Source: an uncultured Pirellulaceae bacterium (GTDB taxonomy: Bacteria > Planctomycetota > Planctomycetia > Pirellulales > Pirellulaceae). Taken from it: a stretch of 32,914 nt of DNA. The DNA is taken from assembly GCA_937941455.1 (NCBI GenBank), contig CALDHM010000073.1:1-32914 (forward strand), read 5' to 3'. Positions 3,866 to 30,880 of this stretch are shown piece by piece (the stretch's first letter is position 1; each line of letters begins with the position of its first letter). Made by a program: the position numbers and the translations under genes. Below the pieces are notes generated by a model, which searched no databases, was not told the origin of the DNA, and saw only the letters and a list, made by a program, of their open reading frames with translations.

Positions 3866-6316
3866 ATGACGACAGCATGTTCGGATAGAAGGATTCCCGA
3901 CAATTCCACGTTGGCGCGGCGACAGTTTATCAAGGCCTCCGCGATGGCCATGGCCACCACCATGGCTGCCGGGAAGGCAACCGGGGCGTTACCGATCTTA
4001 CCCGCCGCTACGGTGGTGAGCGAGACGTCCCTGGACGTGGTGTGGAACAAAGCTCCCTGTCGCTTCTGTGGCACCGGTTGTCATGTGCAGGTAGGTGTCC
4101 AGAACGGTCGTGTTGTGGCCATTGCCGGGGATCGCGATGCCGAGGTGAATAAAGGCTTGCTGTGCGTGAAGGGGTATCATGTCGGCGGCATCTTGTATGG
4201 ACAGGATCGCCTGACCCATCCGCTTCTCAAAGTTGGAGATCATTATCGCAAAATCACCTGGGACGAAGCCATCGACGTCATTGCCGATCGCATTATGGCG
4301 GCACCCTCACGATTCGCTTTTTATGGCTCCGGCCAGTGGACGATTCCCGAAGGTTACGCTGCGCAAAAGTTTATGAAGGGGGGCTTGGGCAACAATCATA
4401 TCGACCCCAACGCGCGATTGTGTATGGCATCGGCCGTCACCGGATTTCTGGCGACCTACGGCGTCGACGAGCCAGCCGGCTGCTACGATGATCTGGACCA
4501 TTGCGATGTCTTGATCATGTGGGGCAACAATCCGGCCGAAATGCACCCCGTGCTCTTTTCTCGCGTCACCGATCGGCGGCTGCGCGGCGAGCAGGTACTC
4601 ATGATCGACATCGGTACGCGGCGTACGCGGACGACCGAAAAATGCCAACATTACCTGGAGATGAAGGGGCATGGCGATTTAGCGATCGCCAATGGGATCG
4701 CCCATCAATTGATCAAGAACAAAACGTACAACCGGCAATTCGTCGAAAAGTATTGCAATTTCAAGGCCCCAGACGATGCCAACCCTAATTTGCACGGCCG
4801 AACCATCACCTTCGAAGAGTATCAAAAACTACTGGAGCCCTACACGCCTGAGTACGTTCAGCAGGTAGCGGGAGTCCATGCGGAACAAATCGTGATGCTC
4901 GGTGAACTCTTCGGTAATCCGAATTTGCGGATTACTTCGCTCTGGTGCATGGGCATGAACCAGCATACGCGCGGCACGGCAATCAATAATTTGGTGCATG
5001 GGATTCATCTGCTCAGTGGTCATTTTGGTCGCCCGGGAGATGCCCCCACCAGTTTGACGGGCCAGCCCTCGGCATGCGGCACCGTGCGCGAGGTCGGCAC
5101 CTTAGCGCATGGTTTGCCCGGCGGCCTCGTCGTGAGCAACCCGCAGCACCGCGCCGAGGCAGAACGGATTTGGAATTTGCCCGCCGGGCGGATCAATCCT
5201 AATCCAGGCTATCACACAGTTCTGATGTGGGAGAAGTTTTGCACGCCCAGCGATCAAGGAGGAGATATCGACACGATCTGGGTGCAAGTCACGAACCCGG
5301 GACAATCGCTCCCGAATCTCAACAAACTGTTCCGCCCCAAAGCGGATCTCAAAGAAAAATTTTTGATCGTCAGCGAGGTCTATCCAACGGCCACCACCCA
5401 GCTGGCCGACCTGATCTTACCTTCGGCGATGTGGGTAGAAAAAAATGGAATGTTCGGTAACTCCGAGCGGCGCACTCAACAATGGTTCAAGATGGTTGAA
5501 CCAGCCGGAGAGGCGCGCGACGATTGTTGGCAGACCATTGCCGTCGCCCGCCGCCTTTTCGATCGTGGGCTCGATGGTATGAAAGATCGAGATGGTCGAT
5601 TCATTTTCGACGTCCGCGACCAAGACGGGAACGTAGTTGCCGTGTGGGACTGGGAACATTATTACAACGTCAACGTGGATGAGTTCCTATTCAACGAATA
5701 TCGGGCCTTCTCCCGATTCAAGCATAAAGATCTGGCCCCTTACGCTGAATACGTCAAAGCCCGCGGCCTACGTTGGCCGGTACTCGAGGTCGATGGCCAT
5801 TGGCGCGAAACGAAATTCCGCTTCGTCGAAGGTGCTGATCCGTACGTTGCCACCGGCAAAGGAATTCAGTTCTACCATTCGTCCACCAACGATGATCGCG
5901 CTCAGATCTGGTTTCATCCCTGGGAGCCGCCGGCGGAAACGCCTTGTGACGAATTCCCCTTGTACCTGACCACAGGTCGCGTACTCGAGCATTGGCACAC
6001 GGGCACGATGACGCGGCGAATTCCCCAGTTGAGTCGAGCCATGCCGGGCGCCTATTTGGAGATCCATCCCGAGGATGCCCGCCAGGCCGGCATCTCCAGC
6101 GGCGATATGGTCGACGTCGAATCGCGCCGCGGCACGATTCGCCTACCGGCTTGGATCAGTGGCCGCGGCTATCCACCACAAGGAACCGTATTCGTTCCGT
6201 TTTTTGATGAGATGCATCTGATCAACGATCTGACATTGGATGCACACGATCCCTTCTCGAAGGAACCGGATTACAAGAAGAGTGCCGTCCGCATCAAAAA
6301 AGCGTCAGGACAATGA
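3866..6316 (+). CDS. napA: Periplasmic nitrate reductase, catalytic molybdoprotein NapA
   Basis: 816 residues. Reduces nitrate to nitrite in the periplasm using a bis-MGD molybdenum cofactor and one [4Fe-4S] cluster. A twin-arginine signal is visible at residues 18-23 (RRQFIK) followed by an Ala-rich segment. The cluster ligands are C65, C68, C72 and C100, and K102 lies between cluster and cofactor (CVKGY). The molybdenum-ligand cysteine is C186 in NARLCMASAV, so this enzyme uses Cys, not Sec. GMNQHTRGT and TGRVLEHWHTGTMTRR are cofactor-binding segments, the latter typical of NapA. Length is close to known NapA (about 830). Its stop is one base from the ATG of the downstream cytochrome, so they are co-transcribed. 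No NapC, NapG or NapH gene is in the operon. Confidence 0.97.
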   Translation: MTTACSDRRIPDNSTLARRQFIKASAMAMATTMAAGKATGALPILPAATVVSETSLDVVWNKAPCRFCGTGCHVQVGVQNGRVVAIAGDRDAEVNKGLLCVKGYHVGGILYGQDRLTHPLLKVGDHYRKITWDEAIDVIADRIMAAPSRFAFYGSGQWTIPEGYAAQKFMKGGLGNNHIDPNARLCMASAVTGFLATYGVDEPAGCYDDLDHCDVLIMWGNNPAEMHPVLFSRVTDRRLRGEQVLMIDIGTRRTRTTEKCQHYLEMKGHGDLAIANGIAHQLIKNKTYNRQFVEKYCNFKAPDDANPNLHGRTITFEEYQKLLEPYTPEYVQQVAGVHAEQIVMLGELFGNPNLRITSLWCMGMNQHTRGTAINNLVHGIHLLSGHFGRPGDAPTSLTGQPSACGTVREVGTLAHGLPGGLVVSNPQHRAEAERIWNLPAGRINPNPGYHTVLMWEKFCTPSDQGGDIDTIWVQVTNPGQSLPNLNKLFRPKADLKEKFLIVSEVYPTATTQLADLILPSAMWVEKNGMFGNSERRTQQWFKMVEPAGEARDDCWQTIAVARRLFDRGLDGMKDRDGRFIFDVRDQDGNVVAVWDWEHYYNVNVDEFLFNEYRAFSRFKHKDLAPYAEYVKARGLRWPVLEVDGHWRETKFRFVEGADPYVATGKGIQFYHSSTNDDRAQIWFHPWEPPAETPCDEFPLYLTTGRVLEHWHTGTMTRRIPQLSRAMPGAYLEIHPEDARQAGISSGDMVDVESRRGTIRLPAWISGRGYPPQGTVFVPFFDEMHLINDLTLDAHDPFSKEPDYKKSAVRIKKASGQ

Positions 6317-6317
6317 T

Positions 6318-7148
6318 ATGCGTCGTGTTTGGGAGAACTATCGAGTAGGCTTGCTCGCCGCCGTGATGGTGATTTCGGCGACGGTGGTCGGCTACTTCAC
6401 TGGTTTGCAAGCGCCGATGAGCCGCGGCCAGCTCTACGATTCATATTCGAATCATTCGGTCGAACCTCCGGAAGCCGATTCCCTTGACGCGACGGCTGCG
6501 ATTGTGCCGGCCACGAGTTATCGGGAACTAGCAGACGTGTTGCGAGCGCGTTCCTCGGTGAAGCCGAGGACACTCGAGGAGCTGCTCCCGCCCCCGAGGA
6601 TACCCCAACCCGATTCGCCGCAGACCGATCTACCTCCAATCACAATGTCCGATAAAACCTTTGCCTTGAGCATGCGGGCGATAAATCGCGCCTTCAATGG
6701 TGCTCCCCCCACAATACCGCACCCGATTGACCAATTATCGGATCAAACGTGCCTGGCGTGTCACGGCACTGGTTTTCAAATGTCGTCGTTACGCGTCTCG
6801 AAAATGTCTCATCAGATGCTGCAGAATTGCACTCAATGCCATGTCGAGCAACAGCCACGGCATCTCCCGGCCACGGAATTTCGTGCGTCGACGTTCGTCG
6901 GTCTACCCGCTCCGCTGGAAGGCCCCAGGGCCTATCCCGGAGCGCCGCCTCAAATCCCTCACACGACATGGATGCGGATCGATTGCACGAGTTGCCACGG
7001 TCCGAGCAGTTGGCGGGGTTTACAAACCACCCACCCCTGCCGCGAAAATTGTTTACAGTGCCACACACCTGCGGCCGCGATGGAGCAAGTCAAAATCGAC
7101 CCGCAACCCAGATTTCTCGAACCGCCAAACATCGTCGGTGACCAATGA
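6318..7148 (+). CDS. napB: NapB-like membrane-anchored cytochrome c with two NapB-type modules (four hemes)
   Basis: 276 residues from the ATG at 6318, one base after the napA stop; an earlier in-frame ATG at 6240 lies inside napA and is rejected. A single N-terminal hydrophobic segment (residues 10-30) could be an uncleaved anchor or signal. A Pro-rich linker (about 45-110) follows. There are four CxxCH heme sites: C145-H149, C171-H175, C223-H227 and C245-H249. Ordinary NapB has two, preceded by a PPxIPH segment. Here that segment occurs twice (APPTIPH at 129-135 and APPQIPH at 209-215), each followed by two heme motifs, so the protein looks like a tandem duplication of the NapB module. It presumably passes electrons to NapA. 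Confidence 0.88.
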   Translation: MRRVWENYRVGLLAAVMVISATVVGYFTGLQAPMSRGQLYDSYSNHSVEPPEADSLDATAAIVPATSYRELADVLRARSSVKPRTLEELLPPPRIPQPDSPQTDLPPITMSDKTFALSMRAINRAFNGAPPTIPHPIDQLSDQTCLACHGTGFQMSSLRVSKMSHQMLQNCTQCHVEQQPRHLPATEFRASTFVGLPAPLEGPRAYPGAPPQIPHTTWMRIDCTSCHGPSSWRGLQTTHPCRENCLQCHTPAAAMEQVKIDPQPRFLEPPNIVGDQ

Positions 7149-7666
7149 ACCGCAAATCACCTGAGTTAAGTCAAGCAAACAGCTCTGAACCTAAAATCTC
7201 CCGCCGCGATTGGTTTCGCCTGAGACGCGGCACAACCGCAGCCGACTGCCTACAAGTAGATAACACGGCCGATCGCGGTCAGCCGCGGCAACTGATGGCT
7301 CCCGGACAACCAATTTCACAACCGACCAACTACGGCGAGATCGATCTGGCTCAATTGCCGCCCCTGAGAGAGGCAGAACTCGATGGCGAACAACTTGTGC
7401 AGTTGTTCGAAGATCTCCGCGAGTTTGCTCACCGGATCAGCGTCCATTACCGCGGATTGTCCTCCGGCGTAGACCAAGGCTTGGTCGATGCAGCGACTCA
7501 ACTGATAGCCGTGCGAACCGAATTATTCTCAGGTCGATTGTCGCGAGTGCAGATTCGTTATGCCTGGGATGGAGCTTGGTGGATCGATACTCTCGAATCG
7601 CGCGACGGACGATTTCGGTTAGTGCGAATCTGTCACAAGATCCCAAACATGGCCGGTTCGCCGTGA
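7145..7666 (+). CDS. Protein of unknown function, last gene translationally coupled to nap
   Basis: 173 residues; its ATG overlaps the stop of the NapB-like gene by four bases (ATGA), so it is very likely a real member of the nap operon. I do not recognise a family. Near the N-terminus is SRRDWFRLRRG (residues 19-29), which resembles the basic start of NapF-type maturation proteins or a twin-arginine motif. No hydrophobic stretch follows, so export by Tat is doubtful. No ferredoxin cysteines are present, so it is not NapF. The middle (about 65-130) looks helical and acidic, and the C-terminus (RYAWDGAWWIDTLE, residues 136-149) beta-rich. A cytoplasmic assembly role for Nap is a guess from position only. 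Confidence 0.75.
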   Translation: MNRKSPELSQANSSEPKISRRDWFRLRRGTTAADCLQVDNTADRGQPRQLMAPGQPISQPTNYGEIDLAQLPPLREAELDGEQLVQLFEDLREFAHRISVHYRGLSSGVDQGLVDAATQLIAVRTELFSGRLSRVQIRYAWDGAWWIDTLESRDGRFRLVRICHKIPNMAGSP

Positions 7667-7721
7667 TCCACAACTGACAGACAGTAAGAGCTTTTGGTTT
7701 CCTGATTCGTCAGGGATGAAC

Positions 7722-8057
7722 ATGGCCAAATCAACAGTGCTGGTAGACGTCGCTGAATCCAGTCCCACAGCATTCTCGAAGAGTGTGCTGCATGCCGATT
7801 CTTCGATCAAACTGGTTCGACTGCAGCTACCGGCCGGCAAACAAATTCCCGCTCATCATGCTCCGGGTGATCTCACCGTGCTGTGCCTGGAGGGAGAGGT
7901 TCGATTCGAAGTGGGGCAAGAGCCATATACTCTGACGGCTGGCAAGTTGATCTACGTTCCCGATAAGCGAACTCACGCGCTAACTGCCGTCACAGACGCA
8001 CGGCTGTTGGTCACGATCATCGCCGAACGGGACGCTGCCGCAGTCGATTCGGTATGA
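7722..8057 (+). CDS. Small single-domain cupin protein
   Basis: 111 residues from the ATG at 7722, which has AGGG at proper spacing; the ATG at 7716 is too close to that site. The sequence has one cupin barrel. Motif 1 is around residues 45-65 (PAHHAPGDLTVLCLEGEV) with two adjacent His and a following Glu as possible metal ligands. Motif 2 contains YVPDKRTHAL with a further His. Such proteins bind metals or small molecules, and the substrate cannot be told from sequence. It lies 55 bases after the nap operon's last stop in the same direction, and convergent with nrfA, so it may be part of the nap transcript. Confidence 0.85.
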   Translation: MAKSTVLVDVAESSPTAFSKSVLHADSSIKLVRLQLPAGKQIPAHHAPGDLTVLCLEGEVRFEVGQEPYTLTAGKLIYVPDKRTHALTAVTDARLLVTIIAERDAAAVDSV

Positions 8058-8110
8058 GCTCGCGATCGCGGCATGAAGCTCAACGATGGCCTGATCTGGT
8101 GGTGCGGAAC

Positions 8111-9790
8111 TCATTTTTCCGAATTTGCGTTCCCTTGGTTTGCCGACGGCTGCGCAGCCAGGGTCAAGATCAATCGCAGAGCTGCAGCCTGGGCCTGGCG
8201 ACTGAGGTCGATGGATTCGCCCAAGATGCGAGCGGATTCTTGAGGAGCATGAAATCCGCGTGAATTTTCGCTGCTGATGTAGTCGAGCCGCCACATCGAT
8301 TTCCGTTGCAATAGGCGGATCGGTGCAAGCTGTTCGTCGGTCGCGCCGGCTTTTTGGCATGCGACGATGACGTCGAGCATGTCGGTCATGGCCACCGCGG
8401 CTCGTTCCATCAGATCCTTCGTTCGTTGCTGAATAGTCTCGACCCGTTCGATGAGATCCTTTTCCGCGACATGGTGGCAGTTTTGGCAGGCATGATTGAT
8501 ATTCTCGAGGGGGCTGCGGACGTTGTGATTGCTGACTTTCATCGCCCCGACTCGTTCGTAAGGCATATGGCAATCGGCGCAGCTGACACCAGCCCGAGCG
8601 TGGGTGCCTTGGTTCCACAGTTCGAACTCTGGATGCTGCACCTTGAACAGTGGTGTTCCGGTTTCCGTATGAACGAAATCGGCGAAGTCCGTTCCGTCAG
8701 GAAATTTTTTCTCTTCCCAGTGCTGTTCGAGTTGTTCGGCCTTCAGGCCTTTGGACCACGGAAATTCGAGGATATCTTTGGGGGCGCAGTAGTATTCGAC
8801 GTGGCATTGGGCGCAAGTAAAGCTTCTCATTTCGTGCCTCGTTGCCAGCTTGTTTGGATCGTAGGGTTCCTTGCGATCGCCGCGCCGCCATTTCTCGATA
8901 CTGGGCAGGTGAGGAAACGGTTCGTCGCTCGTTGCCAGATCAGCAATCCCTTGCATGAATCCTGGTCGCGTGATTCGCAGGGCCATCGTGCGCGGATCAT
9001 GACAATCGATACAACTCATGGGGTGCGCCTCGCTCATTTGGAAATGCCCATCGACCGGCTGCTGCGGATGGAAGCCGCCGACGGGTGGGGATGGAAAGGT
9101 CGTTGGTTGCCCCTTCGTGGTTCCGTCCGGAACCTGAGTCAGCATTTCGAGGACCTCATGATACGGTTTTTGGCTGAGCAGCTCGAACCCTTTTCGTACA
9201 GCCTCCATGTTAAACTCACTGGCCAGAGCGACTTCATCGAATGGTTTTCCCATGGCTTCCAGACCGACCTTGCGGTACAGCACTATGGGTGACGCATGGC
9301 AATGGAGACAGGCCCCGGCCTGTGGCCGCTGATTAACGCGCTCGGTTACCACCTGATCGTACAGCATGTAAGCATGGCCTCTTGCCTCGCGATAATCAAT
9401 GCTGAACGCGTAGCCCGCGTACAGCCGTTTCAGCCACGGGCTTTGCTCCAGTTTGCTATCGGGCAGGGCCGAAGAACCCCCGTAAAATTTATCGCCTGCA
9501 GTCAGCTTGTATTGATCGAACTGATGGGGCCAATTCAATCCCCACGGGATAGGATCGGTACTTACCTCGTTAATTTCCACAACGCGTGCGTAGGCTCGTA
9601 GGGCATCCTGCTTGTGCCCGAACATCGTGAACAGAACCCAAGCGATCAAGGCGGTGGCGATAGCAGCCGACAGCGTGAGCACCAAAGGCAGCACGAGACG
9701 GCCAGAACGCGACGAAATCTGCAACGACTGAATCATGGCTGTGATAAATCTTGCTTTATTGAGAGTGATTTTTAGAAAATAACGAATCAT
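8111..9790 (-). CDS. nrfA: Ammonia-forming cytochrome c nitrite reductase NrfA, all-CxxCH type
   Basis: Six-electron reduction of nitrite to ammonium in the periplasm. Five heme motifs are seen: C161-H165, C260-H264, C326-H330, C404-H408 and C435-H439. In most NrfA the first, catalytic heme has CxxCK; here it is CLHCH, as in the known CxxCH subgroup (for example Campylobacter). Family hallmarks are CAQCHVEYYC at 326-335, with the Glu-Tyr calcium ligands and nearby catalytic Tyr, and THARAGVSCADCHMPY at 396-411, with the active-site His. At 559 residues it is longer than usual. An N-terminal hydrophobic segment (about 32-56) looks like an uncleaved anchor. The start is uncertain: 9790 or the in-frame ATG at 9736, neither with a good ribosome site. 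It follows nrfH on the same strand. Confidence 0.95.
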   Translation of the reverse strand: MIRYFLKITLNKARFITAMIQSLQISSRSGRLVLPLVLTLSAAIATALIAWVLFTMFGHKQDALRAYARVVEINEVSTDPIPWGLNWPHQFDQYKLTAGDKFYGGSSALPDSKLEQSPWLKRLYAGYAFSIDYREARGHAYMLYDQVVTERVNQRPQAGACLHCHASPIVLYRKVGLEAMGKPFDEVALASEFNMEAVRKGFELLSQKPYHEVLEMLTQVPDGTTKGQPTTFPSPPVGGFHPQQPVDGHFQMSEAHPMSCIDCHDPRTMALRITRPGFMQGIADLATSDEPFPHLPSIEKWRRGDRKEPYDPNKLATRHEMRSFTCAQCHVEYYCAPKDILEFPWSKGLKAEQLEQHWEEKKFPDGTDFADFVHTETGTPLFKVQHPEFELWNQGTHARAGVSCADCHMPYERVGAMKVSNHNVRSPLENINHACQNCHHVAEKDLIERVETIQQRTKDLMERAAVAMTDMLDVIVACQKAGATDEQLAPIRLLQRKSMWRLDYISSENSRGFHAPQESARILGESIDLSRQAQAAALRLILTLAAQPSANQGNANSEK

Positions 9791-9960
9791 CGAGCAGGCG
9801 CGGATCGAAATTCTCGTGCTGCGTCGATTCCTGAATAGGGAAATAATCGAATCCGCCGATAGGTGCTAGCCCCGGTGTTTCCTAATCGTGGCTAGTGGCT
9901 TGCGGCTAATCTTGAGTGCGATTGATCGGATTGATGTAAAAACCGAACTCCTTGATTCAC

Positions 9961-10467
9961 TCAGTGATGGGCGTGCCCCACCGAATAGTGACAATGGATG
10001 CAATCCAGCATGCCTTGGTCTTCGGTCGCTGGCAGCATCGAATGAACCAATTCCTGGTGGCAATAGAGACAGGCCTGCTGAGTGACTCGTCGGTTACGCG
10101 GCTTGATTTGAATCGGCTCTTGAAACTGGCCGGTGGTGAAGGCCAGGGAATGGAACAACCCATTGTCGGATTTCGTCAACCACTTGGCGAGGAACGAATC
10201 GTGGGGCAAATGGCAATCGTTACAAGTCGCAACCGAGTGATGGCTGGATTTCTGCCAAGAATCGAAATGAGACTGCATGATGTGACAATTGGCACACGAC
10301 TTAGGGTCATTCGAAAAATACGAAAGCCCGCCGCCGTAATTGAAGGTGAAAATACCTAGCCCGAGAGGCACTCCCACTGCCATGAATGGAATCAAGGTCA
10401 GCCAACGCCGAAATACCGGATAGCGACGCACCGATCGGATCGCGGGGCGCAAGCTCTCCTGCTCCAT
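9961..10467 (-). CDS. nrfH: NrfH, tetraheme quinol dehydrogenase subunit of nitrite reductase
   Basis: 168 residues of the NapC/NrfH family. NrfH takes electrons from menaquinol and feeds NrfA, to which it is bound on the outer face of the inner membrane. One N-terminal membrane helix spans about residues 22-42 (LTLIPFMAVGVPLGLGIF). It carries four CxxCH motifs: CANCH, CNDCH, CLYCH and CIHCH. The CANCHIMQSHFDSWQ segment with SHH after it is typical of NrfH, in which the first heme has unusual axial ligation by a nearby Met. The start ATG has GGAG 8 bases upstream. It is the first gene of the leftward nrfHA pair, about 170 bases ahead of nrfA, and divergent from the Rrf2 regulator. Confidence 0.95.
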   Translation of the reverse strand: MEQESLRPAIRSVRRYPVFRRWLTLIPFMAVGVPLGLGIFTFNYGGGLSYFSNDPKSCANCHIMQSHFDSWQKSSHHSVATCNDCHLPHDSFLAKWLTKSDNGLFHSLAFTTGQFQEPIQIKPRNRRVTQQACLYCHQELVHSMLPATEDQGMLDCIHCHYSVGHAHH

Positions 10468-10576
10468 GATTCGGCTCCGGGTATCTGCAATTCGGACGGT
10501 CGGCAGCGACTGTGACCTGAGAGGGACTGCCGCGGTCCCCGCAATTTGTTAAACTTTGAGTTTTGTTTCTAAATCC

Positions 10577-10672
10577 GTCAAACGCGGGTCACTAGCCCGC
10601 CGTTCTCGCGACAACCGGACGCTACGGTGTTCCGCTGATAGAGCGGGAACAAAACCTAGCAAAAAATGGCCC
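10577..10672. repeat. Dispersed 96-bp intergenic repeat, copy A
   Basis: This stretch aligns over its full 96 bases with 22866-22961. Shared blocks include CTAGCCCGC, AACCG-ACGCTA, GATAG and AAAAAATGGCC/GAAAAATAGCC. A shorter, more diverged relative is at about 22799-22825 (CGTCAACCGTAGGG, then CTAGCCCC). It lies between nrfH and the Rrf2 gene, next to the operator. No coding sense was found. Confidence 0.6.
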
Positions 10673-10677
10673 CGAGA

Positions 10678-10697
10678 TGTAGACAACCATGTCTACA
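10678..10697. promoter_or_regulatory. Perfect palindrome TGTAGAC-N6-GTCTACA, probable Rrf2 operator
   Basis: Seven-base perfect arms (10678-10684 and 10691-10697) flank a 6-base spacer. It lies 10 bases before the Rrf2 start codon. It overlaps a -10-like TACAAT (10694-10699), so transcription would start almost at the ATG and the message may be nearly leaderless. Rrf2-family regulators commonly bind such palindromes in their own promoters. The site is also within 230 bases of the divergent nrfH start. A close relative lies before the porin gene. Confidence 0.7.
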
Positions 10698-10707
10698 ATA
10701 GTTTAGC

Positions 10708-11139
10708 ATGATTTCAGCCACGGCGGAATACGCGTTGCGTGCCACGGTCTTCTTAGCTAGGCGACACGGACGCAAAGTCAGTCGCCAGGAGATAGCTAAT
10801 GCGACGGATGTGCCAGCCGATTACCTCCTCAAGGTTCTGAAAACTTTAGATGAAGCTGGTATCGTCGAATCGCAACGGGGGCCAGGAGGCGGCTATGAAT
10901 TGGTCAAGCCTCCTCAACTAATCACCGTGCTGGATGTTGTAAACGCGGTGGACGAGATTCCTCGTATCAAACGTTGTCCGTTGAGGCTGGGATCGCATAA
11001 GTCGCTTTGCCCGCTGCATCACTTGCTCGATGAAGCGGCCAAGGCGATCGAGGATGCGTTCCGGAATGTCAGTCTACATGATTTGGTCACTGCAAAACGG
11101 ATTCCGCACTCGTGTTCCTTTCCGGGATTGTCCAGTTAA
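10708..11139 (+). CDS. Rrf2-family transcriptional regulator (possible Fe-S or NO/redox sensor)
   Basis: 143 residues. A winged-helix DNA-binding domain fills residues 1-80, with the family signature EYALRATVFLAR at 7-18, recognition helix region ATDVPADYLLKVLKTL at 32-47 and wing GPGGGYELVKPP at 58-69. C90 and C101 (CPL...CPLH) with a third C136 are placed where IscR/NsrR-type regulators hold their cluster, although spacing differs from the classical C-x5-C-x5-C, so cluster binding is unproven. Nitrite or nitric oxide sensing is suggested by its position between nrfHA and the cytochrome/FeS/NrfD genes. The palindrome directly upstream implies autoregulation. Confidence 0.92.
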   Translation: MISATAEYALRATVFLARRHGRKVSRQEIANATDVPADYLLKVLKTLDEAGIVESQRGPGGGYELVKPPQLITVLDVVNAVDEIPRIKRCPLRLGSHKSLCPLHHLLDEAAKAIEDAFRNVSLHDLVTAKRIPHSCSFPGLSS

Positions 11140-11933
11140 TCACGCCGCAAAACTCAGCAGCACGCGAGGTGTCCTTGCCCAGCCGCTCCCCGCCGACCGT
11201 CAAGTCGCCTGTTAATCACGCCACCCGCTCCGGCATCTCAACGCTGACCACGCTCACCACCGCCGCTTTGGTCGCTGTCGCCTTGGTAACAGCCTGGCAT
11301 GTCAGCTGGATGTGGGACGCACGCCTCGCGACTGAGGGATCGGGAAGCAGCCATCAGTCAGGCGCGACCTCAGCGTTGCCGCGGCAAGAACGTCGCGATG
11401 ACCATCGCAGTGGTGATCGACATGGGCCGGTGTTCCCCATCGAAATTCGTCACCCCCAGGGCGACCTGGGGATTTTGGTAAGCCACCCACATGACGAAAC
11501 GGCAGTGCGAGTCGCTTGTGCGACGTGCCATGCGACAAGGCAGCCGGATCTCTCCAACCGTGCAACGGCAGATTTAACCGAATTTCATCAGATGACAGTC
11601 GTTGACCACGGCTCGATCAGCTGTTTGTCCTGCCACCACCCTGAGGACTATGGCGCCTTTCGTTTGGCCGATGGCCAACAGCTTGCCTATCGTGACGTCA
11701 TGCAGCTGTGTGCGCAATGCCATAGCCAGCAAAAACGCGACTACGATCATGGGGTGCATGGCGGAATGATCGGACATTGGGATCGGCAATTCGGCCCTCA
11801 GTACAAGCACAACTGCATCGATTGCCACGCGCCCCACCAGCCGAAGTTTCCCGCCATGCAAGCGACATTCAAGCCGCAGGATCGATTCTTGGCGCCGCCT
11901 CGCAATTCACGACCTCACTCGCCGGGACACTGA
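11112..11933 (+). CDS. Membrane-anchored tetraheme c-type cytochrome (NrfB-like role)
   Basis: Open from a GTG at 11112 that overlaps the Rrf2 gene by 28 bases; a GTG at 11169 is an alternative, and neither has a clear ribosome site. From the first start it is 273 residues, with one membrane segment at about 46-66 and a His/Arg-rich linker. A periplasmic domain carries four CxxCH motifs: C136-H140, C171-H175, C200-H204 and C235-H239. Several His outside the motifs (for example in YDHGVHGGMIGHW) could be second axial ligands. The stop is one base from the next ATG, so it is co-expressed with the FeS and NrfD proteins. This suggests it carries electrons from that membrane module. I cannot assign it to a named subfamily. 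Confidence 0.88.
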   Translation: MFLSGIVQLITPQNSAAREVSLPSRSPPTVKSPVNHATRSGISTLTTLTTAALVAVALVTAWHVSWMWDARLATEGSGSSHQSGATSALPRQERRDDHRSGDRHGPVFPIEIRHPQGDLGILVSHPHDETAVRVACATCHATRQPDLSNRATADLTEFHQMTVVDHGSISCLSCHHPEDYGAFRLADGQQLAYRDVMQLCAQCHSQQKRDYDHGVHGGMIGHWDRQFGPQYKHNCIDCHAPHQPKFPAMQATFKPQDRFLAPPRNSRPHSPGH

Positions 11934-11934
11934 C

Positions 11935-12927
11935 ATGACCAATCCTCGCCGTTCTGAAGAAAACGATCAGGTTGGCTCGGAAGCGACCGAAGGCCGGTCG
12001 CGGTCGACACAATTGCCGATCGTTAATCAATCCGGATCCTCGCGGCGGACCGCTCTGAAAATCGCGGGCGCAGCTCTTGGTCTCGTTGCGTTTGGAAGAG
12101 CCGTCGCGCCGATGTGGTCGATTCCCGAAAATATTTCGATCGCCGAATTTTTGCAACGACATTACAAGGAGTTGACCGACGAGGACAAACAAGAGATTTT
12201 CCAGCGGCTCGCATCGGAAACCAAAACACGGTACGGCGCCGACGTTACGATTGTCGATCATCGGCCGATCCCTGGCGTAAAATTTGCCTACGCTATCAAT
12301 CTCAGCAAATGCAATGGCAACGGCAAATGCATGGAGGCCTGCCATCGAGAAAACAATCATCACCGCGGCACGAATCAATCATACATTCGCGTTCTGGAAA
12401 TGACCAAGGGCTCACTTGATATGGAGCACGGGACGTCGACGTATGACCACCCCACGCCGCAGCCCGACAAATACTACATGCCGGTACAATGCCAACAATG
12501 CGACAACCCGCCCTGCGTGACGGTCTGCCCAGTAGAGGCGACGTGGAAAGAAGAGGATGGGATCGTCGTGGTCGATTACAACTGGTGTATTGGCTGTCGG
12601 TATTGCGAGGCCGCTTGTCCGTATCACGCCCGCCGCTTCAACTGGGAAGCTGTCGAAATACCTGCAGCAGAAATCAATCCCGAACAAGGTTACTTGTCCA
12701 ACCGGATTCGCCCCCAAGGGACCATGGAAAAATGCCACTTTTGCTTGCACCGAACTCGCCAGGGACGGCTTCCCGCCTGCTTGGAAGCTTGTCCGACCGG
12801 AGCCCGAGTGTTCGGAGATATTAATGATCCCGAATCAAGCATCAACTACGTTCTTAAAAACAAACGCGTTTTTGTCTTGAAAGAAGAGTTGGGAACCCGG
12901 CCAAGCTTTTTCTACTTTTTTGATTGA
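11935..12927 (+). CDS. nrfC: NrfC-type iron-sulfur protein with Tat signal, four cluster motifs
   Basis: 330 residues. A twin-arginine signal is at 36-42 (SRRTALK) before a hydrophobic run, so the protein is exported folded. Cys groups typical of the NrfC/PsrB/DmsB family follow: C126, C132, C136; C186, C189, C194, C198; C218, C221, C224, C228; and C267, C270, C282, C286. The first group reads CNGNGKCMEACH, with Asn129 where the second Cys of the usual CxxCxxCxxxC stands, so one cluster may be [3Fe-4S]-like or oddly ligated. It likely passes electrons between the NrfD membrane protein and the tetraheme cytochrome encoded just upstream. No molybdopterin subunit accompanies it. Confidence 0.93.
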   Translation: MTNPRRSEENDQVGSEATEGRSRSTQLPIVNQSGSSRRTALKIAGAALGLVAFGRAVAPMWSIPENISIAEFLQRHYKELTDEDKQEIFQRLASETKTRYGADVTIVDHRPIPGVKFAYAINLSKCNGNGKCMEACHRENNHHRGTNQSYIRVLEMTKGSLDMEHGTSTYDHPTPQPDKYYMPVQCQQCDNPPCVTVCPVEATWKEEDGIVVVDYNWCIGCRYCEAACPYHARRFNWEAVEIPAAEINPEQGYLSNRIRPQGTMEKCHFCLHRTRQGRLPACLEACPTGARVFGDINDPESSINYVLKNKRVFVLKEELGTRPSFFYFFD

Positions 12928-13064
12928 ACGCCGTAGGTGAACGAGCGACGCGAGCAGCGAGCAACTTCGAACGAAGGATCTCAACTTAGTTCCTAGTGGT
13001 GCCGTGCAGTACATTTTGAAATCGCACGAAACGTTGGCCGCACTTGACCGATGCGAGAACGGAC

Positions 13065-14354
13065 ATGAAACCTGCAGATTTTAACCTGGGTGATTCGAAC
13101 CTTTTCGGCGGCAATCCCGACCATCCGGTGCGCAGCTACCCAAAATTTATCCTCTGGGGGATCGGCGAAGCTACCGACGGTAGTCTGTTGTTCTATTTGT
13201 GGATGCTGGTTCTGACCGGAATTGCGCTGGTCGGAGCCAATGCCTGGGCTGTCCAGGTTCACGATGGCATGATCGTTACGAACATGACCGACCATGTGAG
13301 TTGGGGGCTATACATCGCGAATTTCACATTTATGGTCGGCGTCGCGGCCGGTGGCGTGATGATGGTGATTCCGGCCTACCTGTACCACGATAAGAAAATG
13401 CATGACGTCGTGATCCTCGGCGAGATTCTCGCAATTGCAGCCATCGTCATGTGCCTACTGTTCGTCACCGTCGACTTGGGACGCCCGGAACGGTTCTGGC
13501 ATTTGATTCCGGGAATCGGGCGCTTCAATTGGCCGCTGTCGATGTTGACCTGGGACGTGATTGTTCTTAACGGCTATCTGCTGCTGAATCTGCACATTTG
13601 CGGCTATCTAATGTACATGAGATTTCTGGGATGCAAGCCCAATCCGCGCTGGTATGTTCCTTTCGTCATGGTGTCGATTTTTTGGGCGATCTCGATTCAC
13701 ACTGTAACGGCGTTTCTCTATTGCGGCCTGGGAGGTCGACCGTTCTGGAATACGGCGCTATTGGCACCCCGTTTTTTGGCCAGCGCGTTTGTAGCTGGGC
13801 CCGCGCTGATCTTGATCCTGTTCGAAGTGCTAAGGGTAACGGCCAACCTGAAGGTGGATGATGGGCCGATTCGTGTGCTCCTGAGTATCGTTCGCGTAAC
13901 CGTGCTCGTCAATTTGTTAATGGTGGTTTCCGAAGTCTTCACTGAGTTCTACACTGGCGGTTCTCACACCGCCTCGGCACGTTATCTTTTCTTCGGCCTG
14001 CACGGGCACCGCGCACTTGTTCCCTGGATCTGGACTGCCGTCGTTTTGAATGTTGTCGCCGCGGCGATGTTTTTGTTGCCTGTCGTGATCACGAATCACT
14101 ATGTTCGTGTCGCCGCTTGCACCATGGCCCTCGTCGGAGCCTGGATCGAGAAGGGGATGGGCCTGGTCGTCCCGGGATTCATTCCCAGCACTTTGCATGA
14201 GATCGTTGAATATTCTCCCAGCCTGATTGAATGGAAAATCAGCGCTGGCATCTGGGCGCTGGGATTGATGATTCTGACGGTCCTCACCAAACTCGCCATC
14301 GTGGTATTCCAGCGTCCACTTGCCCAACATGAATCCGAGATGTCCAGTCACTAA
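13065..14354 (+). CDS. nrfD: NrfD / polysulfide reductase-like quinol-interacting membrane protein
   Basis: 429 residues from the ATG at 13065; an in-frame TTG at 13044 would add seven residues. It is an integral inner-membrane protein with about nine to ten hydrophobic helices (for example 42-62, 80-106, 115-136, 163-186, 198-222, 233-257, 274-294, 320-342 and 392-414). NrfD proteins exchange electrons with menaquinol on the periplasmic side and dock an FeS subunit. LGRPERFWHL at 138-147 is a typical family loop. It lies 137 bases after nrfC and is probably the last gene of the Rrf2-cytochrome-nrfC-nrfD operon. Which enzyme it serves (NrfA, Nap or another acceptor) is not shown by the sequence. 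Confidence 0.93.
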   Translation: MKPADFNLGDSNLFGGNPDHPVRSYPKFILWGIGEATDGSLLFYLWMLVLTGIALVGANAWAVQVHDGMIVTNMTDHVSWGLYIANFTFMVGVAAGGVMMVIPAYLYHDKKMHDVVILGEILAIAAIVMCLLFVTVDLGRPERFWHLIPGIGRFNWPLSMLTWDVIVLNGYLLLNLHICGYLMYMRFLGCKPNPRWYVPFVMVSIFWAISIHTVTAFLYCGLGGRPFWNTALLAPRFLASAFVAGPALILILFEVLRVTANLKVDDGPIRVLLSIVRVTVLVNLLMVVSEVFTEFYTGGSHTASARYLFFGLHGHRALVPWIWTAVVLNVVAAAMFLLPVVITNHYVRVAACTMALVGAWIEKGMGLVVPGFIPSTLHEIVEYSPSLIEWKISAGIWALGLMILTVLTKLAIVVFQRPLAQHESEMSSH

Positions 14355-15232: not shown

Positions 15233-16273
15233 ATGACTACCGGAAAACAGATTCGTTTGACTTCCTATGCCAGTTGTGCTGGCTGAGCGTCGAAATTAGG
15301 GCCAGGGGACTTGGCCCGCGCAATCGAACCGCTCAAAAACCTGTTCCGCCCGGCCGACTATCCGAATTTGTTGGTCGGGTTAGCCCGCGCAGATGATGCG
15401 GCCGTTTACGAGCTGAACCCGGAGCAAGCCATCATCACGACGACCGATTTTTTCCCCCCCGTCGTGGACGATCCCTATGATTTCGGGGCGATCGCAGCCG
15501 CCAACGCGATGTCGGACGTTTACGCGATGGGTGGCCAAGTCTTATTCGCCATCAATCTGGTGGGCTACCCGGAAAGCTTGGGGCCGGAATTGCTGGCGGA
15601 AATCTTGCGCGGAGGAGCTGAAAAGGTCGCCGAGGCGGGGGGGGTCATCGCGGGAGGCCATAGCGTCAGCGACAAAGAACCCAAGTACGGCCTGGCGGTC
15701 ATCGGCCTCATTCATCCCAGTTTGGTGAAAACCAAAGGGGGGGCCGCAGCGGGCGACATTTTGTTTTTGACTAAGGGGCTCGGAGTGGGGGTCGTGACGA
15801 CTGCACTGAAACGCGAGCAAGCCGACACCGAGCACGTGGCGGCTGCGGTGCAAAGTATGAAGACCCTCAATCGAGCGGCTGCGCAGGCCGCCCTGGCCGC
15901 ATCAGCAAGGGCGATGACGGACATCACTGGTTTCGGTTTTATCGGGCACGCTTCGGAAATGATCCTCGAATCGCAGGTCGATTTCGTGATCGCGTCCAAC
16001 AAGGTTCCTTGGTTGCCCGGTGCGGTGGCTTACGGGTCGGCTGGCATGTTTCCCGGCGGCACCAAGCGAAATTCCAACTACTTCGAACCGCGGGTCCGTT
16101 TCGAATCGCATGTCGATCCGGTCATCAAGTCGTTGTTGATGACCCCGGAAACATCGGGGGGATTGCTGATTGCAGTTCCTGCCGATCGGGCGGATCAGTT
16201 CCAGCGCGAGTGCCCGAGCGGGGTGGCGATCGGCCAGGTCGTTTCTGGCGCCGGAATGATCCGGGTGGTTTAG
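15233..16273 (+). CDS. selD: Selenide, water dikinase (SelD), itself a selenoprotein with in-frame UGA
   Basis: Makes selenophosphate from selenide and ATP, the selenium donor for selenocysteine synthesis and tRNA selenation. Reading from the ATG at 15233 (AAGGACAGG upstream) gives 346 residues if the TGA at 15284-15286 (codon 18) is read as selenocysteine. The N-terminus is then SYASCAGUASKLGPGDL, matching the family's active-site loop, in which position 18 is the catalytic Cys/Sec and K21 the essential Lys. Downstream are TTDFFPP, a GGHSV loop and DITGFGFIGHA, all SelD hallmarks. Starting after the TGA would remove the active site. The length equals E. coli SelD (347). Standard gene callers would start it at 15311. 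Confidence 0.95.
15299..15317 (+). promoter_or_regulatory. Bacterial SECIS-like hairpin for UGA recoding
   Basis: GGGCCA (15299-15304) and TGGCCC (15312-15317) form a perfect 6-bp stem with the 7-base loop GGGGACT, which begins with G. The loop starts 18 bases after the UGA. Stem, loop size, loop G and distance all fit bacterial SECIS rules for SelB-directed Sec insertion. Confidence 0.75.
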
Positions 16274-16565: not shown

Positions 16566-19334
16566 CTAACGAGTGACGCGGGTTGGGGTGGCAAAGGCCG
16601 ACTCGATCAACTCGTTCTGCTCGATGACGTGCATCTTCTTCGAACCTGTCGAGGGACTCGCCGATTCCGGCCGAGAGATGAACGACAGCGGGTAGTCCTT
16701 TTGCAATTCGAGGTCTTCCCACTTTAGGCGGATGAAATTGCGGGCTCCCATGTTGCGGGGCTCCTCTTGGACCCAATAAATCGGAGTCCCCGCCGGGTAG
16801 GCCTGCAGCGCCTCGACGATATCGCGGCGATGGAGCGGGTACAGTTGCTCCAGGCGTACGATGGCGACTTCGTCGGATTTCCGTTCCTCGCGAGCCTTGT
16901 ACAAGTCGACAGCGATCTTGCCGGAGCAGAGCAAGATTCGCGAGGGTGATGCCAGGTCGCCGACACGCGGATCCTGGATCACGCGTTGGAACTGACCGGC
17001 GGTCAGATCACTGAACGGGCTCATCACGAGGGGCTCGCGGAGCAGGCTCTTGGGCGTGAGCACGATGAGCGGCTTACGCCACTTGCGGTGGACCTGCCGC
17101 CGCAGCAGATGGAAGTACTGGGCGGCCGTGGTGGGATAGACGATTTGCATGTTGTGTTCGGCCGACAAGGTCAAGAAACGTTCGAGTCGAGCGCTGCAGT
17201 GCTCCGGTCCAGCGCCTTCGAAGCCATGCGGCAGGAGCATGGTGATGCCGCTGAGCCGACGCCATTTGTCTTCGGCGCTCGAAATGAATTGATCGACAAT
17301 GACCTGAGCCACATTCCAGAAGTCGCCGAATTGGGCCTCCCACATCACGAGGCTCTCGGGGGCATCCAGACTGTAGCCGTACTCGAAGCCCAGGACACCG
17401 GCCTCGCAGAGGGGACTGTTGTAAACCTCGACAGGTGCCTGATCCTGCCCGATATGCTTCAGCGTGTGGTACTTTGCACCCGTTTCGGCGTCGTTCAGGA
17501 CGGCATGGCGGTGACTGAAGGTACCGCGTTCGGCATCTTGGCCACTCAACCGCACGGGGTGCCCCTCCAAGGCCAGCGACGCCATCGCAGCCAATTCCGC
17601 GGCGGCCCAGTCGATCGGCCGATCACCGCCGGCCATTTCCGCCCGCGAGTCGATGACGCGTTGCAGTTTCCGGTTCACGTTGAAGTCGGCAGGCGTGCGG
17701 CCCAGCCCCAAGAAAATTTCCTCAAGCGTCTTGCGATCGACCCCCGTGTCGTGCCGATCTTCATCCCGTTCGAGTCCGCCGTAATAGTGATTCCAGAATC
17801 CGCCGAGCGTTTGCACATCGGATTGGAATTGCGAAACTTTTGCGGCTTCGAATTCCGACTCGAGCTCCTCGCGACGCTGTTGCACGATGTAGTCCGCATC
17901 CTCAGCGGTAATTTTTTGTGACTTGAGCAGTTGCTGGACGTACACCTCGCGCACTGACGGTCGATGGTCGATGGTTTGGTACATCACCGGCTGAGTGAAG
18001 CGCGGCTCATCACTTTCGTTGTGCCCGTGCCGCCGATAGCAATACATGTCGATGACGACGTCCCGTTTGAAGAGACTGCGGAAATCCATGGCCAAGTCCA
18101 CGACTTGGGCCACGGCCTCGGGATCTTCGCCGTTCACGTGGAAGATCGGAATTTGTAGCATCTTGGCCACATCGCTGGCGTAGGTCGTCGAGCGGCCTTC
18201 CTCAGCGGGCGTCGTAAAACCGATCTGATTGTTGAGAATGACATGCAAGGTACCGCCTACGGCATAACCCGGCAGTTCACTCATGTTGAGTGTTTCCTGC
18301 ACGATTCCCTCGCCGGCGAACGCTGCGTCACCGTGGATCAGAACATTCATGCAGCGACGTCGTTCATAATCGCGGAAGCGATCCTGCTTCGAGCGGCAGC
18401 GGCCCATTGCCACGGCGTTGACATATTCGAGATGGCTGGGATTGAAGCACAGCGAAATGTGAATCTTTTGTCCGGCTTGCGTGACCCAGTCGCTGCTGTA
18501 GCCCATGTGGTACAGCACGTCGCCGCGACCCCGCTTCATCTCGTGATCGGCCTCGTCGATACTCCAGAAAATATTTTGAGCCCGTTTGTGCAGGATGTTG
18601 GCCAGCACGTTCAGGCGGCCGCGGTGGGCCATTCCCAACACGACCTCTTGGACCCCTTGCTCGCCAGCTTTTTCCAGCGCCAAATCGAGCAACGGGATTA
18701 GTGTCTCGCCCCCCTCGAGCGAAAAGGTCTTTTGGCCGATGTACTTCTTGCGGACAAACTCCTCGAAGATGGTCGCATCGGTTAGGCGGGTCAGAATGCG
18801 GACCATGGTAGCGTGAGACAATTGCAAGCGGTTTTGCGTGCTCTCCATGCGACTTTGCAGCCAGTTCCGCACGCTGTAGTCGTCGATGTGCATGAACTGC
18901 GCTCCGATCGAGCGGCAGTACGTCTCTCGCAACTTGGCAACGATTTCCTCCAGCGTCAATTCGTCCGCGCCGTAAATAGTACGGGTGGAAAATTTGCGAG
19001 TGAAATCCTCGTCGGTAAATCCGTAAGAATAGGGATCCAACTCGGTGTTCTGACGACGGGGGATGCCCAGCGGATCGATGCGTGCCTCCAAGTGCCCACG
19101 CACTCGATAACCGCGAATCAACTGGTCGACACGATCCTGCAAATTGGCAATCGCCATTTTGGAGGTCGCTCCATTGCCGGTGGTTCGTGCAGCGCCGACC
19201 AGCGTGGTTGCCTCACCCGGCTTGCCAGCAATGAAGTTCCGAAAATAATCGTGCCACTCTGCGGGAACGGATTCGGGTTGTTGCAGATATTGATGAAAAA
19301 GGTCGTCGAGGAATTCTTGATTTGAAACGTTCAT
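16566..19334 (-). CDS. sucA: 2-oxoglutarate dehydrogenase E1 component
   Basis: 922 residues, near the usual 930. This thiamine-diphosphate enzyme decarboxylates 2-oxoglutarate in the TCA cycle and passes the succinyl group to the E2 lipoyl domain. Seen in order: the N-terminal E1 segment (NQEFLDDLFHQYLQQPESVP, residues 5-24) that in other OGDH binds E2; GMAHRGRLNVL at 234-244; the diphosphate/Mg motif GDAAFAGEG at 335-343 with the closing NNQ at 368-370; HGHNESDEPRFTQP; and a C-terminal transketolase half ending with the usual YPLSFISRPESASPSTGS region. No sucB or lpd is adjacent. The ATG at 19334 has no clear ribosome site, but no better start is near. Confidence 0.97.
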   Translation of the reverse strand: MNVSNQEFLDDLFHQYLQQPESVPAEWHDYFRNFIAGKPGEATTLVGAARTTGNGATSKMAIANLQDRVDQLIRGYRVRGHLEARIDPLGIPRRQNTELDPYSYGFTDEDFTRKFSTRTIYGADELTLEEIVAKLRETYCRSIGAQFMHIDDYSVRNWLQSRMESTQNRLQLSHATMVRILTRLTDATIFEEFVRKKYIGQKTFSLEGGETLIPLLDLALEKAGEQGVQEVVLGMAHRGRLNVLANILHKRAQNIFWSIDEADHEMKRGRGDVLYHMGYSSDWVTQAGQKIHISLCFNPSHLEYVNAVAMGRCRSKQDRFRDYERRRCMNVLIHGDAAFAGEGIVQETLNMSELPGYAVGGTLHVILNNQIGFTTPAEEGRSTTYASDVAKMLQIPIFHVNGEDPEAVAQVVDLAMDFRSLFKRDVVIDMYCYRRHGHNESDEPRFTQPVMYQTIDHRPSVREVYVQQLLKSQKITAEDADYIVQQRREELESEFEAAKVSQFQSDVQTLGGFWNHYYGGLERDEDRHDTGVDRKTLEEIFLGLGRTPADFNVNRKLQRVIDSRAEMAGGDRPIDWAAAELAAMASLALEGHPVRLSGQDAERGTFSHRHAVLNDAETGAKYHTLKHIGQDQAPVEVYNSPLCEAGVLGFEYGYSLDAPESLVMWEAQFGDFWNVAQVIVDQFISSAEDKWRRLSGITMLLPHGFEGAGPEHCSARLERFLTLSAEHNMQIVYPTTAAQYFHLLRRQVHRKWRKPLIVLTPKSLLREPLVMSPFSDLTAGQFQRVIQDPRVGDLASPSRILLCSGKIAVDLYKAREERKSDEVAIVRLEQLYPLHRRDIVEALQAYPAGTPIYWVQEEPRNMGARNFIRLKWEDLELQKDYPLSFISRPESASPSTGSKKMHVIEQNELIESAFATPTRVTR

Positions 19335-30385: not shown

Positions 30386-30880
30386 ATGAAGCCGCTAGTC
30401 AGTCGATTGACCGATCCGTTTAACGATAAAAGGACTGCCCAGCGAGTTGTGTTCTTGATGCTGGCAGCGATTTTGATTTCGGGAAATCGGACCGTGTCGG
30501 CCATAATTCGTTTGATTGGCTTGATTGATCGAGTAAGTCCGTCAACTTATCATCGCGTAGTTTCTCATCGACGCTGGCATTTGGCTCCGTTGTCGCAAGC
30601 CATCATTGGTTTTTTGCTCGAGCGCTACCTTCCCTCAGGCATCATTCGAATTTGCGGGGACGATACGGTGGATGGTCAGCGCGGCAAAAATGTTTATCGT
30701 AAAGCGCGACATCGAGATGCGGTTCGCAGCAACCAATCGCATACGGTGTACCGTTACAGACACAAGTGGATTGTGTTGGCGATCCTGATTCAATTTCCTG
30801 GTTGCAGTCGTCCATTCGCTTTGGCGGTTTTGGTGGCACTTTATCGGGATGCCCTGAATCAGATGCAAAGGCGATGGTGA
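30386..30880 (+). pseudogene. DDE-type transposase, truncated N-terminal remnant
   Basis: 164 codons. The N-terminal region (RTVSAIIRLIGLID, SPSTYHRVVSHRRW) and the first catalytic Asp motif ICGDDTVDGQRGKNVYRKARHRD (D92/D93, quoted in part), followed by WIVLAILIQFPGCSRPFALAVLVALYR, match a widespread IS4/IS701-like transposase family. After LYRD the frame loses homology and stops. Full-length members are over 400 residues and carry further Asp and Glu catalytic residues, which are absent here. A second frame (up to 31005) runs past this point but is not recognisable. The gene is therefore dead. Confidence 0.75.

Follow-up and report, generated by a model that had tools for sequence, protein, structure and literature searches.

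An in-frame TGA at the catalytic position of a Chloroflexota-type selD in a planctomycete genome

The window analysed here, a 32,914-nucleotide stretch of DNA from an uncultured Pirellulaceae bacterium, contains a selD gene whose frame runs from an ATG at 15233 to a TAG at 16271-16273 and is open save for one TGA, codon 18 (15284-15286). Is this TGA a selenocysteine (Sec) codon within a full-length enzyme, or does it mark a broken gene, a later start or an altered code? The position of the codon, the genes that accompany it and its recurrence in relatives make it almost certain that the gene encodes a Sec-containing selenophosphate synthetase, with the TGA read as Sec (Table 1).

The SelD frame and its TGA codon

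Read through the TGA, the protein begins MTTGKQIRLTSYASCAGUASKLGPGDL... and matches the selD family model TIGR00476 with 370.4 bits (cut-off 125) over residues 8-319 of 346, a match that spans the TGA; Pfam models find its AIRS and AIRS_C domains, and it is the genome's only SelD above the family cut-off. An earlier note, made from the letters of this DNA, had described a continuous frame from the ATG at 15233 through a TGA at the catalytic Cys/Sec position, and the full SelD frame bears this out. It was also right that conventional gene calling shortens selD, since a mechanical ORF listing yields only a 320-residue ORF from the TTG at 15311. In an alignment over residues 5-326, the TGA falls on Cys17 of the SelD 3u0o and Ser20 falls on its Cys19. 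We take 3u0o and this residue numbering to be those of the E. coli enzyme, a member of the same family that differs in having Cys17 and Cys19 where the window protein would have Sec18 and Ser20.

Table 1. Location of the features discussed in the text (window positions unless a contig or locus is named)
Feature	Location	Strand	Remarks
selD, selenide water dikinase	15233..16273	+	346 residues, Sec at residue 18 (predicted); TIGR00476 and Pfam matches
In-frame TGA at catalytic Cys/Sec position	15284..15286	+	probable Sec codon; alignment, relatives
Putative bacterial SECIS stem-loop	15299..15317	+	6 bp and 7-base loop, or 8 bp and GGA loop
Shortened ORF of the mechanical listing	15311..16273	+	TTG start, 320 residues
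sucA, 2-oxoglutarate dehydrogenase E1	16566..19334	-	selD neighbour; test of contig origin
L180, redoxin-type gene	contig C7 56063-56470	-	one in-frame TGA, TUPPF; candidate selenoprotein
L181, redoxin-type gene	contig C7 130501-130950	-	one in-frame TGA, UPPC; candidate selenoprotein
L053 SelD	L053:2923-3963		Cys codon TGT at Sec position

Elsewhere in the window, a respiratory gene cluster at 3866-14354 encodes NrfH and a DsrP-like subunit (each above its cut-off), a molybdopterin oxidoreductase resembling NapA (887.1 bits, narrowly missing the cut-off of 904), a DsrO-like subunit that likewise narrowly misses its cut-off, a NapB-matching protein and a Cytochrom_C552 protein. A shortened IS701-type transposase lies at 30386-30880 (NF049999, 77.9 bits against a cut-off of 170, positions 18-157 of 412).

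The codon at the Sec position was read in 110 loci (L023-L132), comprising the window, the top 29 further loci found in its class (297 genomes searched, 150 with a match) and 80 retained out of 370 from named genomes. As L129 failed to map, 109 rows remain, made up of the window and 108 relatives. Because the named-genome query was limited to the part of SelD downstream of the TGA, that search was blind to the codon of interest. The codon is TGA in 76 rows, TGC in 23, TGT in 10 and nothing else in any, so that without the window TGA stands in 75 of the 108 readable relatives and TGC or TGT in 33. Among the class loci, 8 of 29 have TGA and 21 have Cys; among the named-genome loci, TGA is found in 67 of 79 and Cys in 12. 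All 109 rows share a G just before the Sec/Cys position, an A just after it and a K at +3, and the window gene, whose in-frame TGA occupies the catalytic Cys position with xxK behind it, takes its place among Sec-containing SelDs. The residue aligned to Ser20 is Ala in 32, Ser in 24 and Gly in 20 of the 76 TGA rows, window included; a Ser does replace the second Cys of E. coli, as had been noted (GUASK versus GCGCK), but it is ordinary in TGA rows. Ser at this second residue after the Sec/Cys position occurs in those 24 TGA rows and in none of the 33 Cys rows, a bias that may stem from shared ancestry or from limits set by the hairpin or the recoding context.

This recurrence bears directly on whether selD is a pseudogene broken by a stop, or its TGA a sequencing error for TGC or TGT. 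The TGT found at this codon in the nearest relative, locus L053, speaks for such an origin, but a TGA at precisely the same site in 75 of 108 relatives, a frame that is otherwise open in what is the genome's sole SelD above cut-off, and the presence of selA, selB and tRNA-Sec (below) make it very unlikely. Less likely again is that translation starts past the TGA, at the TTG, with the TGA merely closing a short upstream frame. The TTG does yield a 320-residue ORF, but that start would cost the protein residue 18 and the conserved K21, and the stretch ahead of the TGA is covered by the family model and conserved among relatives, which have Cys or TGA at the site and not a conserved start beyond it. 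In each of the 76 TGA rows the open frame also offers a start codon of some kind 10-40 codons before the TGA, although this is a weak test.

Selenocysteine machinery and candidate selenoproteins

The host genome (4.04 Mb, 96% complete, 1% contaminated) contains selA (564.5 bits, cut-off 267.9), selB (334.8 bits, cut-off 242.25) and one tRNA-Sec (selC) match above cut-off (70.7 bits, cut-off 47, with 11 weaker matches below), which ARAGORN calls as SeC with anticodon tca; these three genes and selD lie on four separate contigs. The whole set for which the earlier note proposed to search is thus present. Together with the relatives, it backs that note's firm call that the cell decodes Sec: the planctomycete host very likely does so.

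In the same genome TGA is also an ordinary stop, since it ends nine of 19 hand-picked window genes as well as selB. A genome-wide altered code in which TGA specifies another amino acid, for which there is precedent in other bacteria, is rendered negligibly probable by these terminations, by the tRNA-Sec (tca), selA and selB, and by Cys being the relatives' alternative at the site.

We looked for tRNA-Sec in the genomes of 79 of the 108 readable relatives and found it in 44 of 46 with a TGA-SelD and 28 of 33 with a Cys-SelD (P 0.12), so its presence was rejected as a separator of the two forms. Two of the 46 TGA-SelD genomes (L067 and L080) had no tRNA-Sec match, and four (L060, L068, L072 and L117) had only a match at 49-51 bits, little above the cut-off (47); over all 79 genomes tested, the sole match was of 49-53 bits in five. 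SelB gave no match at a strict E of 1e-60 in seven of the 46 TGA-SelD genomes, of which L063 is recorded as a chromosome.

SelD is probably not the genome's only selenoprotein, judging from a sequence search that covered three families. FdhA is present as a Cys form (920 bits, CHSP motif, no stop), where a passage of a review lists UHxP as the corresponding motif (PMC13188914), and the best match to formylmethanofuran dehydrogenase B, at 102.6 bits, is below its cut-off of 327.8 and has no in-frame stop. Two of the 18 AhpC-TSA matches, however, carry one in-frame TGA each. The TUPPF gene matches the Pfam models AhpC-TSA, Redoxin and T4_deiodinase above cut-off, and the UPPC gene AhpC-TSA, AhpC-TSA_2 and Redoxin. 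Counting these two redoxin-type genes, three or more genes seem to use the Sec system. Species with YbbB may have SelD as their single selenoprotein, according to a section of PMC1794560; we dropped this as an account of the present genome, in which tRNA 2-selenouridine synthase (SelU/YbbB, TIGR03167) gave no match at E 0.001 at 96% completeness and the two redoxin-type genes were found. SelB matches across genomes include six with an in-frame TGA and one with a TAG. In the three of those six that have loci (L140, L164 and L167), we rejected SelB as a selenoprotein, the TGA lying at or just after the end of the match as an overrun true stop.

The putative SECIS hairpin

Just downstream of the TGA, GGGCCA (15299-15304) can pair with UGGCCC (15312-15317) around the loop GGGGACU (15305-15311), which starts 18 bases from the UGA; folding extends the stem by two pairs to 8 bp and leaves GGA as the loop. 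The 6-bp stem, 7-base loop and 18-base spacing stand as the earlier note gave them, and the hairpin fits the usual bacterial SECIS rule, but it is weaker evidence than was presented, with 64 of 200 synonymous-codon shuffles folding as well. Dinucleotide shuffles do as well in 5, 34 and 4 of 200 cases for the 42-mer, 51-mer and 76-mer, respectively, and under a SECIS-like rule that asks for a G among the first two loop bases, 37 of 310 other downstream in-frame positions in selD reach at least 8 bp (the last few of these windows extending beyond the gene's end). Because shuffles and other positions in the gene so often match it, the hairpin alone is not strong evidence, and the Sec call rests on where the TGA lies, on the machinery genes and on the relatives.

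Comparison across the rows is more suggestive, with the reservation that the rows are phylogenetically related and the comparisons are not independent tests: by that rule, 54 of 76 TGA rows, 2 of 33 Cys rows and 3429 of 26160 control codons are followed by a stem of 7 bp or longer. The energy comparison is weaker, with a shuffle z of only -0.68 in TGA rows versus -0.19 in Cys rows (P 0.03, again for related rows), and its hairpin finder saw a G at loop base 1 or 2 in only 40 of the 76 TGA rows. Covariation was assessed in 14 rows hand-picked from the 109 (12 TGA rows in addition to the window and L053), and support from it was rejected: the RNAalifold consensus is weak (-1.46 kcal/mol) and 102 of 500 column shuffles pair as highly as the window's register. 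The best-fitting register among the 14 rows is one codon away, 3 bases earlier, with 80.4% of cells paired versus 71.4% and 15 of 500 shuffles reaching it; in the window itself, 8 of 8 positions pair in the window's register against 7 of 8 in the earlier one.

For the preferred reading, in which the gene makes a Sec-containing enzyme, these elements suggest the following course. The ribosome would initiate at 15233, and at the UGA at 15284, SelB bound to the hairpin just downstream would bring the Sec-tRNA(UCA), so that Sec would be inserted and the full 346-residue enzyme completed. Sec18 would then participate in the synthesis of selenophosphate from selenide and ATP, and SelA would use the selenophosphate for more Sec-tRNA; SelD would thus help make the amino acid that it contains.

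Gene history and the Cys-form sister

The earlier reading of the gene is upheld with the qualification that this SelD is atypical for its class and groups with those of Chloroflexota. Its nearest relative is L053, from a Planctomycetaceae MAG, at 71-73% identity; after it come SelDs of Anaerolineae, at up to 64%, with the 29 class loci reaching 52-53%. In a quick tree of the 109 rows, with SH-aLRT support only and with sets chosen by similarity, the window and L053 are sisters with support 100. They belong to a set of eight rows (99), completed by five Chloroflexota and a Promineifilum MAG, and this set falls within a 24-row set (95) holding 21 Chloroflexota. A single branch (99) separates the 29 class loci from all other rows. 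The whole tree requires seven changes between TGA and Cys.

The genes compared with selD, selB and the neighbouring sucA, tell another story. Among 79 genomes searched with SelB (65 matched), the best 26 are all planctomycete (652.8-387.2 bits), ahead of the best other at 366.8; the exceptions are four planctomycete genomes, three of which have split SelB matches lower in the ranking and the fourth none. For sucA (58 genomes, 30 matched), the best 20 rows are planctomycete (1347.8-824.9 bits) and the best other scores 700.9, with 8 of 29 class genomes, both same-family genomes included, giving no match at E 1e-60. Contamination of the contig by Chloroflexota was accordingly rejected, on the one neighbour tested. 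A SelD within a Chloroflexota clade beside planctomycete-type SelB and sucA suggests horizontal acquisition, and selD was probably acquired from Chloroflexota, a direction drawn from the nesting of the sequences, and is probably read by a planctomycete-type SelB. No transfer of selD from Chloroflexota to planctomycetes was found among the literature titles and abstract openings listed, and the words planctomycet- and chloroflex- are absent from the available portions of the main text of PMC5029168 and PMC12013277. For Planctomycetes, part of one paper describes Sec genes and selenoproteins and a horizontally transferred fdhA (PMC4807772).

The sister L053 has TGT at the Sec position, yet its selD keeps the same 8-bp hairpin as the window and its genome has tRNA-Sec and SelB. 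By parsimony within TGA rows, L053 likely represents a Sec-to-Cys swap that left a relic hairpin; the alternative is that the Cys form was transferred and Sec regained in the window's line. Sec-to-Cys conversions with remnant SECIS-like hairpins have been reported in like fashion, and a section of the same paper counts SelD among the families with such conversions, although the remnant hairpins in the figure legend are from FdhA and a HesB-like protein, whereas that of L053 is in SelD (PMC1794560). Taking these strands jointly, we lean towards a history in which a Chloroflexota selD, carrying its recoding signal within the coding sequence, replaced the native gene and is decoded by planctomycete SelB, with the sister having exchanged Sec for Cys and kept a relic hairpin. 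In that history the window's stem would also have shifted by one codon from the register that suits the 14 aligned rows best.

As the earlier note recognised, Sec-containing SelD is long known and no new family is at issue. FdhA and SelD are described, in part of one survey, as the most widespread bacterial selenoproteins, with Sec-to-Cys conversions in both (PMC1794560), a passage of another gives Sec in 19% of SelD genes among 223 reference prokaryotes (PMC4561486), and SelD is listed with a UxxK motif in an extract of a review (PMC13188914). The window gene resembles the known Sec-containing SelD/SPS2 (TIGR00476) in family, Sec position, UxxK motif and a putative SECIS-like hairpin right after the UGA, and differs only in its host and apparent history, a planctomycete with a Chloroflexota-type gene; it is an ordinary case with a moderately interesting past. 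For the organism, it supplies a trait call, a host that very likely decodes Sec, through a gene that mechanical annotation shortens. For the family, an apparent transfer into a foreign SelB background, with a Cys-form sister alongside, would offer a natural experiment on the limits of SelB's tolerance for foreign SECIS hairpins.
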